From positions 744,001-808,000 of the forward strand of contig NZ_AP024714.1 in assembly GCF_033126985.1 (NCBI RefSeq): a stretch of 64,000 bases of DNA, given 5' to 3'. This stretch comes from Methylomarinovum caldicuralii (GTDB lineage Bacteria > Pseudomonadota > Gammaproteobacteria > Methylococcales > Methylothermaceae). A program made the position numbers and the translations under genes. Below are positions 86 through 30,305 of the stretch, piece after piece. A model generated the notes under the pieces. The model saw nothing but the letters and a program-made list of their open reading frames with translations, was not told the DNA's origin and did not search any database. Within the stretch, counting starts at the first letter, position 1. Each line of letters starts with the position of its first letter.

Positions 86-445
86 CCCCTGGCCCAGACC
101 CAACCCTTCCTCGCCACCCTCAAATCCCTGGGTTGCCGTCTGGCGCTGGACGATTTCGGCACCGGCTTTTCTTCTTATGCCTATCTGAAACGGCTGCCGG
201 TGGATTATCTCAAGATCGACGGCCAGTTCATCCGCAATCTCAGCCAAGATCCGGTGGACCTGGCCATGGTCCGCTCCATCAACGAGGTCGCCCACATTCT
301 CGGCAAGCGGACGGTGGCCGAGTTCGTCGAATCCGAAGCGATCATGCAACAACTGATAGATCTGCGGGTCGATTACGCCCAAGGTTTCTTCGTCGGTCAA
401 TCGGTACCCCTGAAAACCATTCTGCAAACGCAGCGTCAGGCCTAG
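86..445 (+). pseudogene. 5'-truncated EAL-domain (c-di-GMP phosphodiesterase) remnant
   Basis: The frame encodes only the C-terminal two thirds of an EAL domain. DDFGTG (the catalytic Asp pair), YLKIDG (catalytic Lys), AEFVES (Glu) and DYAQGFFVG are all present. The EAL motif itself, the metal-binding Asn and the ITE glutamate are missing. Homology starts abruptly near LAQTQPF, directly after the in-frame TGA at 83-85. No ATG with a ribosome binding site precedes it; the first usable in-frame start is a GTG at 200, which would make only 81 residues. It is probably a decayed gene that cannot hydrolyse c-di-GMP. Its stop overlaps the GTG start of the next gene (TAGTG). Confidence 0.6.
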
Positions 446-1461
446 TGAAACCCACCTTCCAGCCCCAACTGGTCAACGATCCCTTCGGCGATCCGGCCCT
501 GTACGTGGAGTTTCTGTTCCAGAAACGGGCCCTGCTGTTCGACCTCGGCGACATTCACGCCCTCAGCCCGCGCAAGCTGCTGCGCCTGAGCCACGTCTTC
601 GTCTCCCACGCTCACATGGACCATTTCTACGGCTTCGACTACCTGCTGCGGGTGTGCCTGGGGCGGGCGATGACCCTCCGCCTCTACGGCCCCGCAGGTT
701 TCATCGACCGGGTCGAGCACCGTCTCGGCGGCTACACCTGGAATCTGGTGGAAAATTACGCCGACGAACTGGTCTTCATCGCCCACGAATGGGAGGGCGG
801 GACGACGATGGCCCGGGCCCGCTTTCGCTGCCGCCGGGCCTTTGCCCGGGAAAACCTAAGCGCGGTGCCGGTCGAGGACCGGACCCTGGCGGCCGAGCCG
901 GGCCTGAAGGTGCGCGCCGCGGTCCTCGACCACAAGATTCCCTGCCTAGCCTTCTGTCTGGAGGAAACCGAACACGTCAACATCTGGAAGAACCGCCTGG
1001 AGGAACTGGGCGTTCCCACCGGCCCCTGGCTGCAGGAACTGAAACAGGCCGTTCTGGCCGGAAAACCGGATGACCTGATCATCACCGCCCGCTGGCGCGA
1101 CGGAACGATCCCCCGGGAACGCCGCTTCACCCTGGGCGAACTGAAACGGAAAATCCTCAGAATCGTCCCCGGGCTGCGCGTCGGCTATGTGGTGGACTGC
1201 CGCTACGACCCGCAAAACCTCAAAAATTTGCAGGCTATACTTTCCGGTGTGGACCGGCTTTACATCGAAGCGGCCTTTTCCCAGGAGGAGGCGGAGATGG
1301 CACGGGAAAAATATCATCTGACCGCCTGGCAGGCGGGCGACATCGCCCGGCGTGTCGGCGCCAAACGCCTGGTGCCGTTTCATTTTTCCGCGCGTCATCA
1401 GCAAAATCCCGACCTTCTGTATCGCCAGGCGGCGGAAGGATTCGGCAGGCCCCTGTCATAA
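445..1461 (+). CDS. RNase Z-like MBL-fold metallohydrolase
   Basis: Metallo-beta-lactamase-fold protein of 338 residues, most like the ribonuclease Z/ElaC branch. The zinc motif is SHAHMDHFYG (HxHxDH). Further ligand candidates are LDHKIP, the VVDCRY aspartate and the C-terminal PFHFSARH histidine, in the order seen in RNase Z. Members cleave tRNA 3' trailers or act on other phosphodiesters; which applies here cannot be told. The GTG at 445 overlaps the preceding EAL stop and lets the protein begin just before the DPALYVEFLF strand that opens the domain. Ribosome binding site is weak. Confident on fold, less on substrate. Confidence 0.8.
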   Translation: MKPTFQPQLVNDPFGDPALYVEFLFQKRALLFDLGDIHALSPRKLLRLSHVFVSHAHMDHFYGFDYLLRVCLGRAMTLRLYGPAGFIDRVEHRLGGYTWNLVENYADELVFIAHEWEGGTTMARARFRCRRAFARENLSAVPVEDRTLAAEPGLKVRAAVLDHKIPCLAFCLEETEHVNIWKNRLEELGVPTGPWLQELKQAVLAGKPDDLIITARWRDGTIPRERRFTLGELKRKILRIVPGLRVGYVVDCRYDPQNLKNLQAILSGVDRLYIEAAFSQEEAEMAREKYHLTAWQAGDIARRVGAKRLVPFHFSARHQQNPDLLYRQAAEGFGRPLS

Positions 1462-5539: not shown

Positions 5540-6970
5540 ATGGACATCAGCAAGCTCGAACGCATCGACGAAACCTGCTGGCGCATTCCGGCCACCGGCA
5601 AGATGCGGGTACCGGTGCTGATCTATGCCGACGAGGATCTGATCCGCGACATGGACGACAAGGTGGCCGAGCAGGCCGGCAACGTCGCTTCCCTGCCCGG
5701 CATCGTCGGGGCCTGTTACGTAATGCCCGACGCCCACTGGGGCTACGGCTTCCCCATCGGCGGGGTGGCGGCTTTCGATCCCGCCGAGGGCGGGGTGATT
5801 TCCGCCGGCGGGGTCGGTTTCGACATTTCCTGCGGGGTGCGCACCCTCACCACCGGCCTCAAGCGCGAGGAGGTGGAACCGCTGAAGAAATCCCTGGCCG
5901 AGGCGCTGTTCATCCACATTCCCGCCGGAGTCGGCAGCAAGGGTTCGATCTCCCTGAACGATGCGGAAATGGACGCCATGCTCAAGGGCGGAGCGACCTG
6001 GGCGGTGAAACAGGGTTACGGCCGCGAGGAGGACCTGGAACGGATCGAGGAACACGGCTGCATGGCCGGTGCCGACCCGGCCCAGGTGTCGAAAAGGGCC
6101 CGCGAGCGCCAGCGCCGGGAGATGGGCACCCTCGGCTCCGGCAATCACTATCTGGAAGTCCAGGTGGTGGAGGAGATCTTCAACCCGGACGTGGCCAAGG
6201 TCTTCGGCCTGGAGGCGGACGAGGTGGTGGTCACCATCCACTGCGGCTCCCGCGGCCTCGGCCACCAGATCGGCAGCGAATACCTCAAGCTGATGCAGAA
6301 GGCGGCCAAGGAGGCGGGAATCGAACTGCCGGACCGGGAGCTGGCCTGCGCCCCGATCCGCTCCCCGGTAGGGCAGCGTTATCTGGGCGCCATGCGCGCC
6401 GGAATCAACTGCGCGCTGGCCAACCGCCAGATCATCACCCACCTGGTGCGCAAGGTGTTCGCCGAATTCTTCCCCGACCACGATCTCAAGCTCATTTACG
6501 ACGTCTCCCACAACACCTGCAAGGAAGAGGAACACGAGGTTGGCGGCAAGCGGCGGCGGGTCTTCGTCCACCGCAAGGGGGCGACGCGGGCCTTCGGCCC
6601 CGGCCATCCGGCCCTGCCGGAAGCGTTCAGGCTGGTGGGGCAGCCGGTCATCATCGGCGGCTCCATGGGAACCGGCTCCTACATCCTGGTGGGCACCACC
6701 GAGAGCGAACGCCGCTCCCTGTCCTCGGCCTGCCACGGCGCCGGGCGCTGCCTGAGCCGGCGCCAGGCCACCAAAACCTGGAAAGGGCAGCAGGTCATCG
6801 CGGAGCTGGAGCGCCAAGGCATCATCGTCTGCAGTCCGTCGATGCGCGGGGTCGCCGAGGAGGCGCCGCAGGCCTACAAGCCGGTGGATGCCGTGGTGAG
6901 GGCCGCGGACAAGGCGGGACTGGCCAGGCTGGTGGCGCGGCTGCGGCCCCTGGTCTGCATTAAGGGCTAG
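5540..6970 (+). CDS. rtcB: RtcB RNA ligase
   Basis: 476 residues, GTP- and Mn-dependent ligase joining 2',3'-cyclic phosphate (or 3'-phosphate) ends to 5'-OH RNA. Metal ligands and catalytic residues are visible: GFDISCGVR (Cys), GSGNHYLE (His), IHCGSRGLGH (His), YDVSHNTCKEE (His), and the guanylylated histidine in SACHGAGR. Full family length. With archease directly upstream it forms a bacterial RNA repair or tRNA-splicing-type ligase pair. No RtcA cyclase or RtcR regulator is near, so the sigma-54-controlled arrangement of E. coli is absent. Ribosome binding site GAGGTGAAG at 5529-5537 supports the ATG at 5540. Confidence 0.95.
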   Translation: MDISKLERIDETCWRIPATGKMRVPVLIYADEDLIRDMDDKVAEQAGNVASLPGIVGACYVMPDAHWGYGFPIGGVAAFDPAEGGVISAGGVGFDISCGVRTLTTGLKREEVEPLKKSLAEALFIHIPAGVGSKGSISLNDAEMDAMLKGGATWAVKQGYGREEDLERIEEHGCMAGADPAQVSKRARERQRREMGTLGSGNHYLEVQVVEEIFNPDVAKVFGLEADEVVVTIHCGSRGLGHQIGSEYLKLMQKAAKEAGIELPDRELACAPIRSPVGQRYLGAMRAGINCALANRQIITHLVRKVFAEFFPDHDLKLIYDVSHNTCKEEEHEVGGKRRRVFVHRKGATRAFGPGHPALPEAFRLVGQPVIIGGSMGTGSYILVGTTESERRSLSSACHGAGRCLSRRQATKTWKGQQVIAELERQGIIVCSPSMRGVAEEAPQAYKPVDAVVRAADKAGLARLVARLRPLVCIKG

Positions 6971-7660: not shown

Positions 7661-9660
<2,000 letters not shown>

Positions 9661-9879
9661 CCCGTCCTCCTTGCCGGCGGCTATGGTCTGCTGACCGGCC
9701 TTTACAGTTTAACCTTCGACGATTTCCAGGGGGCAGGCCTGCGGGCCATGATGGCGACCGCTTTCGGTCTGTTTTTCTTTCTCGCCCTCGACCGCACCCG
9801 CCATCACTGGGGCTACTGGCTGGCGACCTTGGTCATCTGTCTTACAGCCTGGTATTTCTGGCCCTGGCTGGTGATGTGA

Positions 9880-10172
9880 AAACAGGCGGGACAACCTGTT
9901 CCCAAGCCTGTGGATAACCGGGGGACACAGACGGGAGAAAATTTTATCCCCGATTCCTCCACAGGCTTCCCCATCCTGTCCACACCCTTGTGGACAACTT
10001 TTAGGTAACACATCAATTTGATTTATAAGGAAAAAAACCGGTTATCCCGGAAAAACGCGCCGGCTTACAACAACCAAATCTTTCTTCAAGAAAAAAGACA
10101 AAGACTAAGAGTTGTCAGATGGAGGGACTGGAGACTGTATAATGTTTAGCCAATTTTCCCTACCGGACATCT
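9880..10172. other. candidate chromosomal origin (oriC) upstream of mnmG
   Basis: The 293 bp hold no gene. A perfect DnaA box (TGTGGATAA, reverse of TTATCCACA) is at 9909-9917, a one-mismatch box (TGTGGACAA) at 9989-9997, and two-mismatch boxes at 9944-9952, 9955-9963 and 9976-9984. A weaker TTATCC at 10042 follows. From about 10005 to 10115 the sequence becomes strikingly AT-rich compared with its surroundings, including AATCTTTCTT, which resembles an E. coli 13-mer of the unwinding element. mnmG (gidA) adjoins oriC in many gammaproteobacteria, and nearly all genes to the right are transcribed away from it. Inference from sequence and context. Confidence 0.7.
10138..10143 (+). promoter_or_regulatory. 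-10 element of the mnmG promoter
   Basis: A perfect TATAAT lies 29 bp before the mnmG start. The nearest -35-like hexamer, TTGTCA at 10112-10117, is 20 bp away, longer than optimal, so the promoter may depend on the -10 or on an activator. Its position at the edge of the putative origin is like the gidA promoter of E. coli, whose transcription aids origin opening. Confidence 0.6.
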
Positions 10173-12047
10173 ATGGAGTTCCCCAAAGTCTTTGACGTCA
10201 TCGTGGTCGGCGGCGGTCATGCCGGCACCGAGGCGGCGCTGGCGGCCGCCCGCACCGGTGCCAGGACACTGCTGATGACCCAGAACATCGAAACCCTGGG
10301 CCAGATGAGCTGCAATCCCGCCATCGGCGGTATCGGCAAGGGGCATCTGGTCAAGGAGATCGACGCCCTCGGAGGGGTGATGGCGCGGGCCATCGACCGT
10401 GCCGGCATCCAGTTCCGTATCCTCAACGCTTCCAAGGGACCGGCGGTGCGTGCCACCCGGGCCCAGGCCGACCGGACTCTGTACAAGCAGGCGATCCGGC
10501 AGACGCTGGAGAACCAGCCCAACCTGTGGCTGTTCCAGCAGACGGTGGCGGATCTGATCGTCGAACGGGGGCAGGCAGCCGGTGTCGTCACCCAGATGGG
10601 GCTGAGATTCCAAGGTCGCTGCGTGGTCCTGACCGTGGGCACGTTCCTCGGTGGGGTAATCCACATCGGCGAGGCCAACTATGAGGGAGGACGCGCCGGT
10701 GACAGTCCCAGCAACGCTTTGGCCCGCCGCCTGCGGGAGCTGGATTTCCAGGTGGGCCGGCTCAAGACCGGCACCCCACCGCGACTGGACGGCCGCACTC
10801 TCGACTACCGGGCGATGACCCCGCAGCCGGGGGACGAGCCGACGCCGGTGTTTTCCTTCCTCGGCACGCCGGAAGAACATCCCCCCCAGGTGGCGTGCCA
10901 CATCACCCGCACCAACGAACGTACCCACGCCATCATCCGCGCCGGCCTGGACCGCTCCCCCCTGTTCAGCGGCGCCATCGAAGGCGTCGGCCCCCGCTAC
11001 TGTCCCTCCATCGAAGACAAGGTGGTGCGTTTCGCCGAGCGCGATTCCCACCAGATTTTCGTGGAGCCGGAGGGGCTCAACACCCACGAGGTCTATCCCA
11101 ACGGGGTGTCCACCAGCTTGCCTTTCGATGTCCAGCTGGACTTTATCCGCTCGATCCGCGGCTTCGAGAACGCCCACATCACCCGTCCCGGCTATGCCAT
11201 CGAATACGACTTCTTCGATCCCCGCGGCTTGAAGCCGAGCCTGGAAACCAGGGCCATGGAAAATCTGTTCTTCGCCGGCCAGATCAACGGCACCACCGGC
11301 TACGAGGAGGCCGCCGCCCAGGGCCTGATCGCCGGGCTCAACGCCGCCCGCAAGGCCAAAGGGCTGGAACCCTGGTGGCCGCGGCGCGACGAGGCCTACA
11401 TCGGCGTGCTGATCGACGATCTCATCACCCGCGGCACCAGCGAGCCTTACCGCATGTTCACCAGCCGGGCCGAATACCGCCTGCTGCTGCGCGAGGACAA
11501 CGCCGATCTGCGCCTCACTCCCAAGGGCCGGGAGCTGGGGCTGGTGGACGACGCGCGCTGGCGGACCTTCGAACGCAAGGTGGAAAACATCGAAACCTTG
11601 CGCGGCGAACTGGAACGATCCTGGATCCAACCCGACAGCGAGACTGCCAAGCGGCTTGCGGCGGTGCTGAAAAATCCCCTGCAGCGGGAAGCCAGCCTGC
11701 TGGAACTGCTGCGCCGCCCGGAAGTGGACATCGCCCGCCTGCTCGAACTGGCGGAGGTGGACAGCGCCGCTTACACGCCGGCGGAGGTGGAACAGGTGAT
11801 GATTCAGGCCAAGTACGCCGGTTACATCGAACGCCAGCGGGCCGAGATCGAACGCACCCGCCGCTACGAGGATCTGCGGCTGCCCGAAAGCCTCGACTAC
11901 CGCAACGTGGTCGGTCTGTCGCGGGAAGTGCAGGAGAAACTGGCGGCCCGCAAGCCGGCCACCCTGGGGCAGGCAGCCCGGATTCCCGGCGTGACTCCAG
12001 CGGCCATCTCCCTGCTGCTGGTTCACCTCCGGAAGAAAAGCGCCTGA
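10173..12047 (+). CDS. mnmG: MnmG (GidA), tRNA U34 carboxymethylaminomethyl-modifying enzyme
   Basis: 624 residues, full length. FAD- and folate-dependent partner of MnmE that installs the 5-carboxymethylaminomethyl group on wobble uridine of several tRNAs. FAD-binding [13 protein letters not shown] at about 14-26, [22 protein letters not shown], and the C-terminal helical domain are clear. It opens the run of co-oriented genes right of the putative origin and overlaps rsmG by one base (TGATG). The promoter is the TATAAT at 10138. Confidence 0.97.
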
Positions 12048-12664
12048 TGGCCGCAAGTATTCTGACCGCCGGCATCGAGGCTCTGGGACTGGCGCCGACG
12101 CCCGACCGCATCGGCCGCATCCAGCAGCTTTACCGCGGACTGGTGCGTTGGAACCGGGTAGTCAATCTCACCGCCATCGAAGACGAGGCGCGGTTCGTCA
12201 CCCACCACGTCCTCGACAGCCTGGCGATTCATCCGTACCTGCACGGCGGGCGGATTCTCGACGTGGGCACCGGCGCCGGCTTTCCCGGCCTGCCGCTGGC
12301 GGTCTTCTTTCCCGAGCGCCGTTTTGTGCTGCTGGACGCGGTGGCCAAGAAGATCCGTTTCGTGCGCCAGATGGCCCTGGAGCTGGGATTGAACAACGTA
12401 GAGGCGGTCCACGCCCGGGTGGAGGACTATACAGACCCGGCGGGATTTTCTACCATCGTCACCCGGGCCGTCACCGAAGCCGGCCGCAGCCTGTCCCAGA
12501 GTGGTCACCTGCTGGCGCCGGGCGGCAGGTTGCTGGTGATGAAGGGCCGCCATCCGGCCGAGGAACTGGCGGCGCTCCAGGCCCCGCACCGGGTGATCCC
12601 CCTGCAGGTGCCCGGTCTGGAGGCCCGGCGCCACTTGATCGAAATCACACCGAAAACCGAATGA
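12047..12664 (+). CDS. rsmG: RsmG (GidB), 16S rRNA m7G527 methyltransferase
   Basis: 205 residues, SAM-dependent. The SAM motif DVGTGAGFPGLPLA is near residues 70-83, followed by LLDAVAKKIRF and an RAV segment; the C-terminus closes with LVMKG. It methylates N7 of G527 in 16S rRNA. The start ATG at 12047 overlaps the mnmG stop and the stop overlaps the parA ATG, so it is translationally coupled on both sides. Standard gammaproteobacterial order. Confidence 0.96.
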   Translation: MAASILTAGIEALGLAPTPDRIGRIQQLYRGLVRWNRVVNLTAIEDEARFVTHHVLDSLAIHPYLHGGRILDVGTGAGFPGLPLAVFFPERRFVLLDAVAKKIRFVRQMALELGLNNVEAVHARVEDYTDPAGFSTIVTRAVTEAGRSLSQSGHLLAPGGRLLVMKGRHPAEELAALQAPHRVIPLQVPGLEARRHLIEITPKTE

Positions 12665-13446
12665 CCAGAATCATCGCCGTCACCAACCAGAAGGGCGGGG
12701 TGGGCAAGACCACCACCAGCGTCAACCTGGCCGCCTCCCTGGGTGCGACCCGGCGCCGGGCGCTGCTGGTGGACATCGATCCCCAGGGCAACGCCACCAT
12801 GGGCTGCGGGGTGGACAAGAACGAGGCCGAGCCCAACTGCTGCGATCTGCTGCTGGGGGAGACCGGCGCCGAAGCGGTGTTGACGCCGCGGCCGCAACTG
12901 GGATTCGACCTGATTCCCGCCAACGCCGATCTGACCGCCGCCGAAGTCCGGCTGATGCAGGCCGACCGCCGCGAACGCCGCCTCGCCGAGGCCCTGGAGC
13001 CGGTCCGGTCCCGTTACGACTACATCCTCATCGACTGTCCGCCGTCCCTCAACATGCTGACCCTCAATGCCCTGGTGGCCGCCGACGGGGTGTTGATCCC
13101 GATGCAGTGCGAGTATTACGCCCTGGAAGGCCTGTCGGCCCTGCTGGAAACCATCGCTGACATCCGCCGCAGCGTCAATCCCCGCCTGCAGATCGAGGGG
13201 GTGCTGCGCACCATGTTCGACCCCCGCAGCCGCCTGACCCGGGACGTCTCCGAACAACTGCAGGAACACTTCGGCGACCGCCTGCTGCGGACCTGCATCC
13301 CCCGCAACATCCGTTTGGCCGAAGCGCCCAGCCACGGTCTGCCGGTACTCCACTACGACAAATCCTCCCGTGGCGCCCTGGCCTATCTGGCCCTGGCCGG
13401 AGAGCTGGTCGGCCGACACCAAGGAGAAAACGCTCATGGCCGGTAA
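12661..13446 (+). CDS. parA: ParA chromosome-partitioning ATPase
   Basis: 261 residues. Deviant Walker A NQKGGVGKTT at about 10-19, DIDPQGN, Walker B-like ILIDCPPS, and the C-terminal RNIRLAEAPSHGLP, all typical of chromosomal ParA/Soj. It forms ATP-dependent gradients on DNA that move ParB-bound origins. Position after rsmG and near the candidate origin fits. ATGA overlap with rsmG; parB starts 11 bp inside its 3' end. Confidence 0.96.
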   Translation: MTRIIAVTNQKGGVGKTTTSVNLAASLGATRRRALLVDIDPQGNATMGCGVDKNEAEPNCCDLLLGETGAEAVLTPRPQLGFDLIPANADLTAAEVRLMQADRRERRLAEALEPVRSRYDYILIDCPPSLNMLTLNALVAADGVLIPMQCEYYALEGLSALLETIADIRRSVNPRLQIEGVLRTMFDPRSRLTRDVSEQLQEHFGDRLLRTCIPRNIRLAEAPSHGLPVLHYDKSSRGALAYLALAGELVGRHQGENAHGR

Positions 13447-14281
13447 AAAAAAACGCGGCCTGGGACGCGGCCTCGACGCGCTGCTGGGAGAAGCGGCCCT
13501 GCCCCGGGCCGAGTCGCCCCAGACCCTGCCTCTGGAGCGGATCGAGCCGGGCCGCTTCCAACCCCGCCGCGACATCGATCCCGAGCGCCTGGCGGAACTG
13601 GCTGAATCCATCCGTGCCCACGGGGTGGTCCAGCCGGTCGTGGTCCGCCCCCGCGAAAACGACCGTTACGAGCTGATTGCCGGCGAACGGCGCTGGCGGG
13701 CCTCGCGTCTGGCGGGGCTGACGGAAATTCCCGTGGTGGTGCGCCGGCTCGACGATCGCACCGCCCTGGCCCTGGCCCTGATCGAGAACATCCAGCGCGA
13801 GGATCTCAATCCGCTGGAACAGGCCGAAGCCCTGTGCCGGCTGCTGGAGGAATTCGACATGACCCACCAGCAACTGGCCGAAGCGGTGGGCAAGTCACGC
13901 ACCACCATCACCAATCTGCTGCGCCTGCTCGATCTCGAACCGGAGGTCAGACAGTTGCTGGCCGAAGGCCGGATCGAGATGGGCCACGCCCGCGCCCTGC
14001 TGGGACTGGCCGGCGAGCAGCAAGTGCAAATCGCCCGCCAGGTGGCCGACGGCAAACTGACGGTGCGCGCCACCGAAGCCCTGGTGAAGAAACTGCAACA
14101 ACCCCGGGAGAAATCCCGGCAGGACCGGCCTGATCCCGACATCCTGCGGCTGCAGGAGGAGCTGTCCTCCCTGCTCGGGGCGCCGGTCACCATCCGCCAC
14201 GGCCGTGGCGGCAAGGGCAGCCTGGTGATCCGTTACAGCGATCTGGAACAGCTGGAGGGATTGTTGACCCGGATGAGATAA
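13436..14281 (+). CDS. parB: ParB chromosome-partitioning CTPase
   Basis: 281 residues. The basic N-terminus KKKRGLGRGLDALLGE is the ParA-stimulating segment of chromosomal ParB. The CTP-binding core has GERRWRAS and NIQREDLNPLEQA, then a helix-turn-helix and a C-terminal dimerisation region. ParB loads at parS and recruits Smc, which is also encoded in this window. I did not see a convincing parS site here. Start chosen at the ATG at 13436, with AAGGAG just upstream at 13421-13426; an earlier in-frame ATG would extend into parA. Confidence 0.96.
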   Translation: MAGKKKRGLGRGLDALLGEAALPRAESPQTLPLERIEPGRFQPRRDIDPERLAELAESIRAHGVVQPVVVRPRENDRYELIAGERRWRASRLAGLTEIPVVVRRLDDRTALALALIENIQREDLNPLEQAEALCRLLEEFDMTHQQLAEAVGKSRTTITNLLRLLDLEPEVRQLLAEGRIEMGHARALLGLAGEQQVQIARQVADGKLTVRATEALVKKLQQPREKSRQDRPDPDILRLQEELSSLLGAPVTIRHGRGGKGSLVIRYSDLEQLEGLLTRMR

Positions 14282-29163: not shown

Positions 29164-30305
29164 CTATCCGGCCGCCTTGTGTTCGAGCCGGGTCAGAACC
29201 CCGCCGCTTTCCACCTGGTTGCGGCCTTCGCGCTTGGCGACGTAAAGGGCCTGGTCGGCGAGTTCCAACAGGCGCATGAGATCTTCCTTGCCCACCGGAG
29301 AAACCAATTCGGGATCGTATTCCGCCACTCCGATGGAAAGGGTGAGGGAAACCGTATTCTGATTGTGGTCGACGATCTCCAGGTTCTCGATGCGCTGGCG
29401 GATGCGCTCGGCCACCTCGATGCCCCGTTCGAGGTTCGCGCCTGGCAGCAGAGCGACGAACTCCTCCCCGCCATAGCGGGCCAGGACGTCGTTGCTGCGC
29501 AGCTGGGTGCGGATCTGCTGGGCTACCTCCGCCAGCACTAGATCGCCGGTCTGGTGGCCGTAGGTGTCGTTGATTTTCTTGAAATGGTCGATGTCGAGGA
29601 ACAGGCAGGTCAGCGGTTCGCGGGTACGCTGGGCGCGATCGATCTCCTCGCTCAGGCGCTGTTCGAAGAAGCGGCGGTTGTTGACGCCGGTGAGGGTGTC
29701 GATCAGGCTGGTGCGGCGCAGCAGCTCGAAATTGAGGGTGTTTTCCAGGCACACCGACAGCACCGAGCGCAGCCGGTCGAGGAAATCGGTCGCCATGCCG
29801 TAGCTGAAACGGTCCGCCTCGTCGCTGCCCAGGTTGAGGCTGCCGAGCAGCTGGCCGCGCCGCCCCAGCGGCAGCAGCGCGATGCTGGCGGGGCACTCGC
29901 CGGAAAACAGATGGCGGTGGCGGGCTTTGCAATCCCCCAGATAAGGACGGAAGGTGCGGCCGAACCAGTCCTTGAGCGGGTTTTCCTCCGCCACCAGGAT
30001 CAGTCCTGGCAGTTTTTCCGGTTGCAGGCCGTCTTCCATCAGGAACTGGCGCAATTCCCCCTTGCGGTCGATCAGGGTCAGGCTGACGTGGGCCAGGTCG
30101 AACACCGCCCGGGTGTCGGCCAGGACGTGCTCGACCAGTTCGCGCAGGGAGTTGAGGGCGAGCAACTCGGTTTCCAGGGTGTGAAAGCGGTGGAGCTTGT
30201 CGTCGTTCTGGCGGATGCGTTCGATCATCCGGTCGAGATGGCTCTGCAGGATGCAGAGTTCGGTCTGCAGGGCTTCGATCTCCGTCACCGGATCCACCTG
30301 GCTCA

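Follow-up and report, generated by a model that had tools for sequence, protein, structure and literature searches.

Organization of the mnmG locus

The window analysed here is a 64-kb stretch of DNA, bases 744,001-808,000 of the 2,694,844-bp single-contig genome of Methylomarinovum caldicuralii IT-9. Within it, a gap between a 91-codon ORF and mnmG (gidA) is followed by rightward-oriented mnmG, rsmG, parA and parB, and on its other side ahcY and a gene for a HAD-family hydrolase run leftward (Table 1); the rightward gene orientation and the nearby parAB are as a preliminary description of this DNA had given them. That description also took the gap to be the largest gene-free gap, which was not confirmed: a rough ORF caller ranked it 7th, but the caller erred on two or more of the larger 'gaps', 29542-30305 lying within an ORF with a GGDEF-type motif and 12924-13369 overlapping parA. 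The 3' part of the 91-codon ORF is near-identical in M. tepidoasis. Farther left, a 476-aa ORF (window 5540-6970) matches the last 384 of the 961 positions of the NCBIfam intein-containing RtcB-family model, below cut-off. An Rfam search of the whole 64-kb window gave no match.

Table 1. Features in and beside the gap upstream of mnmG, in window coordinates
Feature	Position	Strand	Basis or remark
Candidate oriC	9880..10172 (chromosome 753,880-754,172)	.	293-bp gap, 91-codon ORF to mnmG; boxes, AT-rich tract, skew switch, conservation
DnaA box TTATCCACA, exact	9909..9917	-	Box scan; present in M. tepidoasis (G009) too
Weak DnaA-box-like TTATCCCCG, 2 mismatches	9944..9952	+	Box scan
Weak DnaA box TCCTCCACA, 2 mismatches	9955..9963	+	Occupies position of conserved genus box
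Weak DnaA box CTGTCCACA, 2 mismatches	9976..9984	+	Reads TTGTCCACA in M. tepidoasis
DnaA box TTGTCCACA, 1 mismatch	9989..9997	-	Box scan
Candidate DNA-unwinding element	9999..10156	.	AT-rich; least stable 80 bp = 10077-10156
ahcY	7661..8962	-	TIGR00936; points away from candidate origin
HAD-family hydrolase	8959..9660	-	Points away from candidate origin
91-codon ORF left of gap	9606..9878	+	No Pfam match
mnmG (gidA)	10173..12047	+	TIGR00136, 901 bits
rsmG (gidB)	12023..12634	+	TIGR00138, E 8e-46
parA	12661..13446	+	AAA_31, E 1e-64
parB	13370..14281	+	ParB_N, HTH_ParB, ParB_C

DnaA boxes and AT-rich tract

One perfect and one near-perfect DnaA box, several weaker ones and a sharp AT-rich tract had been claimed for the gap, and all were found: an exact box at 9909, a box with one mismatch at 9989, and three with two mismatches at 9944, 9955 and 9976. 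The first two are the only boxes within one mismatch in the gap. The boxes at 9976-9984 and 9989-9997 combine into an inverted repeat (9977-9996), a palindrome that a promoter scan scored as a terminator-like hairpin; the same scan found no sigma-70-like site in 9600-10400.

The exact DnaA 9-mer occurs six times in the 2,694,844-bp genome and a reversed control motif ten times; thus exact boxes are not over-represented genome-wide. When the gap was dinucleotide-shuffled 20,000 times, an exact box appeared in 50 shuffles, at least two boxes within one mismatch in 43, and both at once in two. Two or more boxes within one mismatch were also found in 21 of the 17,075 sliding windows (285 bp, step 50) of an 864-kb genome sample. 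In the same sample the best 100 bp of the tract (from 9999; 65% AT) was equalled by 0.11% of 100-bp windows, and the duplex instability of the 80 bp from 10077 was matched by 0.10% of 80-bp windows.

There is no GATC in 9880-10172, so that the GATC enrichment of the Dam/SeqA type is absent; such enrichment is a feature of the Dam/SeqA subtype, and oriC in general does not need GATC. The best IHF-like sites in the gap have two mismatches.

GC skew and change points

Skew was sampled in the window and in 40 stretches of 20 kb each, after which 536-868 kb of the chromosome was made contiguous. On the right arm, from 754.0 kb to a dif-like site at 1,484.9 kb, all 11 sampled blocks (unequal in size) were positive; on the left arm 23 of the 25 were negative, one stood at 0.0002 and one, 9 kb beside dif, was positive. 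The placing of oriC beside mnmG in the preliminary description agrees with this: skew passes from negative to positive in the mnmG region, in M. caldicuralii as in four related genomes, and the dif-like site lies near the skew maximum.

The raw cumulative minimum falls at 773,331, 19 kb right of the mnmG gap, and that of M. tepidoasis likewise lies 19 kb to the right (830,236, vs. 811,001 for mnmG). In the window this minimum (29,331) is close to the end (29115) of a mostly rightward gene run from mnmG, where leftward genes start, and a strong strand skew is carried by the genes themselves (beta -0.12); the fit to third-position skew therefore took account of gene strand as well as of the side of the change point. 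As a third candidate site the raw minimum was rejected: it falls within a leftward ORF with a GGDEF-type motif, with no box within one mismatch nearby and no Rfam match.

The main fit, of strand-corrected third-codon-position skew, used codon-usage gene calls for 275 ORFs in 536-868 kb; these calls had the atp genes rightward, but assigned rsmG to the wrong strand. The change point came at 757 kb, with the gap at 753.9-754.2 kb, and the mnmG gap had a log-likelihood loss of 0.59, the raw minimum one of 2.43 and ppnN, whose upstream DnaA boxes are treated below, one of 8.57. The curve is broad, staying within 2 units over 706-771 kb, and 50.5% of the bootstraps (n=200) fell within 20 kb of mnmG and 1% within 20 kb of ppnN. 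In the four related genomes the switch lies 1-3 kb from their own mnmG-side DnaA boxes: at 809 kb in M. tepidoasis (within 2 units over 803-815; mnmG gap 810.8; loss at ppnN 24.7), at 704 kb in G005 (cluster 702.7; ppnN loss 7.4), at 1,123 kb in G027 (cluster 1,124.1; loss 7.6 at ppnN and 16.1 at dnaA) and at 1,306 kb in G012 (range 1,277-1,345; cluster 1,304.1; ppnN loss 3.3). Cruder gene calls, with false minus-strand ORFs over the atp operon, gave the same point in M. caldicuralii and elsewhere 809 or 830 kb (M. tepidoasis), 704 or 700 kb (G005), 1,121 kb (G027) and 1,345 or 1,304 kb (G012); the 830 and 1,345 kb values each came from one of two sets.

Terminus and replication arms

A dif-like 24-mer (up to three mismatches) was found exactly once per genome in 20 of 20 chosen genomes of the order, with 0 control matches. 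The M. caldicuralii site, at 1,484,891, has two mismatches; skew turns between 1,494 and 1,541 kb, the site and the skew maximum being about 60 kb apart or less, and KOPS-like motifs reverse at the site (3:1 before, 0:4 after, within 20 kb). Over the sample, the KOPS-like GGGNAGGG counts are 72:19 for the right arm and 51:106 for the left; the stretch from 644.7 to 754.0 kb gives 18:10, opposite to expectation for an mnmG origin. Four parS-like sites (three exact) lie at 575086-583034 (575.1 and 582.9-583.0 kb), 171-179 kb from the mnmG gap, which is unusually far for parS, and M. tepidoasis has two exact parS-like sites 86-94 kb from mnmG.

The arms of M. caldicuralii measure 731 and 1,964 kb (27:73), dif not being diametrically opposite, and those of M. 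tepidoasis (2,421,873 bp) about 1,134 and 1,288 kb (47:53). An inversion that includes the terminus alters arm lengths and leaves strand skew undisturbed; the 27:73 arms therefore need not count against an mnmG origin, and the difference between the two species would be explicable by rearrangement or by assembly error. Late cell-cycle defects are described for E. coli inversions that make the arms strongly unequal, in a passage of PMC2585057. Minus-strand 16S genes at 649.9 and 2,158.6 kb are co-directional with forks from mnmG, as is the 16S gene found in M. tepidoasis (plus strand); the search returned one there, and two are listed for strain IN45 in part of PMC10950024.

Conservation upstream of mnmG

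Ten genomes of the genus were compared (G000-G009, G000 being M. caldicuralii), eight of them with the full mnmG place; G006 is split there over two contigs and G007 was unmatched. All eight carry DnaA boxes on the upstream side of mnmG, within the gap in six (G000, G009, G003, G001, G008 and G004) and as far as 4.1 kb upstream in the others: the five boxes of G005, two of them exact, stand 3.8 kb from mnmG, and the three of G002, again two exact, at 4.1 kb. Six of the eight have boxes spaced 21-24 bp apart, the later ones facing the first, with an AT-rich stretch after them. In G003, G001 and G008 the array has TTATCCACA in first or second place, and the columns of the weak box at 9955..9963 read T(C/T)ATCCACA in the alignment of G003, G001, G008 and G004. 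In M. caldicuralii and M. tepidoasis the middle box is unrecognisable and the facing box has two mismatches.

Farther afield, the 600 bp before mnmG at 22 loci from other families of the order held a single box in one case and none in the rest. The clusters of G012 and G027, which stand at the skew switch, are 1.4-1.8 kb upstream of mnmG and fall outside the scanned 600-bp stretch. As a yardstick 80 loci were fetched and ten dropped for short flanks; of the 70 named loci left, each with 2.5 kb or more upstream, 40 show at least three boxes per 300 bp no farther than 6 kb from mnmG. These yardstick clusters have 3-6 boxes and mostly start -300 to -600 from mnmG; the M. caldicuralii gap, with two boxes within one mismatch, has fewer.

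The gap resembles the gidA-side oriC of Gammaproteobacteria (the E. coli, Vibrio and Halomonas types) in its DnaA boxes, its AT-rich tract and its location just before mnmG at the switch in skew, and differs from these types in its fewer strong boxes, in its lack of GATC and in its left neighbours (the 91-codon ORF, the HAD gene and ahcY). According to the authors of the DoriC database, prediction gave some Gammaproteobacteria two potential origins, of which the gidA-adjacent one was kept on GATC enrichment (PMC6323995). In M. caldicuralii skew and synteny lead to the same choice, and GATC is absent from the gap.

We think it very unlikely that the boxes only regulate transcription of mnmG, with the true origin at another, unmarked site within some 30-50 kb. 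The interval to which skew resolves the M. caldicuralii switch (706-771 kb), and the raw minimum just beyond it, would leave room for such a site; but apart from ppnN, nowhere else in 536-868 kb are there two boxes within one mismatch per 300 bp, the M. tepidoasis switch is resolved to a far narrower interval that contains its mnmG gap, and the raw minimum sits near a boundary between rightward and leftward genes that carry strand skew of their own. The boxes of G005 and G002, moreover, are 3.8-4.1 kb from mnmG and so are not at the mnmG promoter.

A DnaA-box cluster upstream of ppnN

The densest cluster of DnaA boxes in the 864-kb sample is not that of the mnmG gap, but lies 110 kb from it, at 644,525-644,990 of the chromosome, with six boxes within one mismatch, two of them exact, in 0.4 kb. 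It is upstream of ppnN, identified by its PpnN_C and DUF4478 domains, and boxes recur upstream of ppnN in seven of the eight genus genomes having the gene (the exception is G002). Since this cluster has more boxes than the gap, we tested which of the two sites skew follows.

An origin at ppnN, with the mnmG boxes as a relic or a DnaA-controlled promoter, would suit the richness of the cluster and its recurrence in the genus, the parS-like sites of M. caldicuralii, which are nearer to it than to mnmG, and the 18:10 ratio of KOPS-like motifs between the two sites. Skew, however, is mostly negative for about 60 kb rightward of the cluster, the change-point fits of M. caldicuralii, M. tepidoasis, G005, G027 and G012 all lose likelihood there (see above), and the rRNA operon at 649.9 kb would be head-on with forks from ppnN. 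Synteny of sampled stretches adds a rearrangement: in M. tepidoasis the counterpart of the 602-656 kb segment with ppnN is at 900-952 kb, on the opposite flank of mnmG, where it forms three pieces, each inverted and partly reordered, and its flanks at 602.0 and 656.2 kb adjoin (743.7 / 743.8 kb); yet the skew switch of M. tepidoasis stays at mnmG. We therefore rejected the cluster as the origin on the change points together with its location in M. tepidoasis, and consider such an origin highly improbable. In M. caldicuralii this 54-kb segment includes an rRNA operon.

The ppnN cluster may instead be compared with E. coli DARS2, for which part of PMC4585315 gives six DnaA boxes, one IHF site and one Fis site; we took the rppH-mutH gap of E. 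coli, which also contains the small annotated gene ygdT, as DARS2 from the 2.97-Mb position given in a passage of PMC5742627. The two look alike in a core of three boxes: two convergent ones lie 14 bp apart, and another precedes them at a spacing of 10 bp in the rppH-mutH gap (> 10 > 14 <) and of 12 bp in the ppnN cluster. The ppnN core (> 12 > 14 <) was found in five of the eight genus genomes scanned (G000, G009, G005, G004 and G003), its third box having 1-2 mismatches. Under the strict rule it went uncalled in G001, G002 and G008, and so did E. coli DARS2 itself, because its middle box has two mismatches. The likeness may extend to the IHF-like sites around the core, which, within one mismatch, occur in four of the five genomes scanned and not in G004, a count made without a chance control. 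Gene neighbours and the letters of the boxes differ between the two. We treat this resemblance, drawn from box arrangement, as a lead and claim no membership.

The dnaA locus

The dnaA gene (101-1423, plus strand) lies 754 kb from the mnmG gap in M. caldicuralii, as against about 40 kb between dnaA and oriC in E. coli. The distance between dnaA and mnmG is 0.58-0.81 Mb in M. caldicuralii, M. tepidoasis and G005 (dnaA at C2:119017 in the last) and about 80 kb in G012 and G027. DnaA-domain matches of near-equal score were also obtained for three 275-aa frames (L003, L004 and L005), which are probably helper ATPases of one insertion-sequence family; a 2-kb repeat of M. caldicuralii, apart from these frames, recurs in M. 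tepidoasis.

The preliminary description had named cumulative GC skew as a check, with a minimum elsewhere, for example near dnaA, as the result that would speak against it; no sign change was seen at dnaA, where the blocks sampled to either side of position 1 have negative skew, and no box within one mismatch was found in the 5.8 kb around the gene (about 3 kb each side). An origin beside dnaA, which is its common place in many bacteria and is what the numbering of the records suggests, both complete genus records starting dnaA at about base 101, is thus rejected for want of skew switch and box, and is hardly credible given also the likelihood loss at dnaA in G027, where the gene is 80 kb from the change point. 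With the origin at mnmG, transcription of dnaA, a plus-strand gene of the left arm, would run against the fork that copies it.

The probable origin of M. caldicuralii

We conclude, with a probability of about 88%, that window 9880-10172 is the chromosomal oriC of M. caldicuralii, of the gidA type. This reading rests on the DnaA boxes, the unstable tract, the skew switch, the dif-like site near the skew maximum and the genus-wide occurrence of boxes on the mnmG side. Judged from its sequence, the mnmG gap has the parts of a standard DnaA-dependent origin, at the usual gidA-side place, and would be a known kind of origin. Among the matches listed in a search of open-licence PMC articles we found no literature on the origin of M. 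caldicuralii, which is no proof of absence.

By analogy with known oriC biology, DnaA from the distant dnaA gene would bind the box array in the left half of the gap, oligomerise toward mnmG and melt the AT-rich tract at about 9999-10156. Helicase would be loaded at the melted tract and two forks would leave, firing being bidirectional as at known origins: the rightward one through mnmG-rsmG-parAB-atp, the leftward one through ahcY and past dnaA on round the circle. The forks would meet near dif, at 1,484.9 kb.

Comparison with E. coli further leads us to suggest, at less than even confidence, that Methylomarinovum pairs an mnmG-side oriC with a DARS2-like DnaA-reactivation element upstream of ppnN. 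Such an element would have been kept even though two sister species differ in the side of the origin that carries its 54-kb neighbourhood; in this lineage 0.58-0.81 Mb separate dnaA from oriC, and the M. caldicuralii arms stand at 27:73.

The analysis places the origin of a thermophilic methanotroph, the record of which takes its numbering from dnaA, and so allows a correct interpretation of gene dosage, strand bias and replication timing. It also tells the origin apart from a look-alike, since DnaA-box number alone would favour the ppnN site. M. caldicuralii and M. tepidoasis offer a natural test, carrying a DnaA-box-rich segment on opposite sides of the origin.
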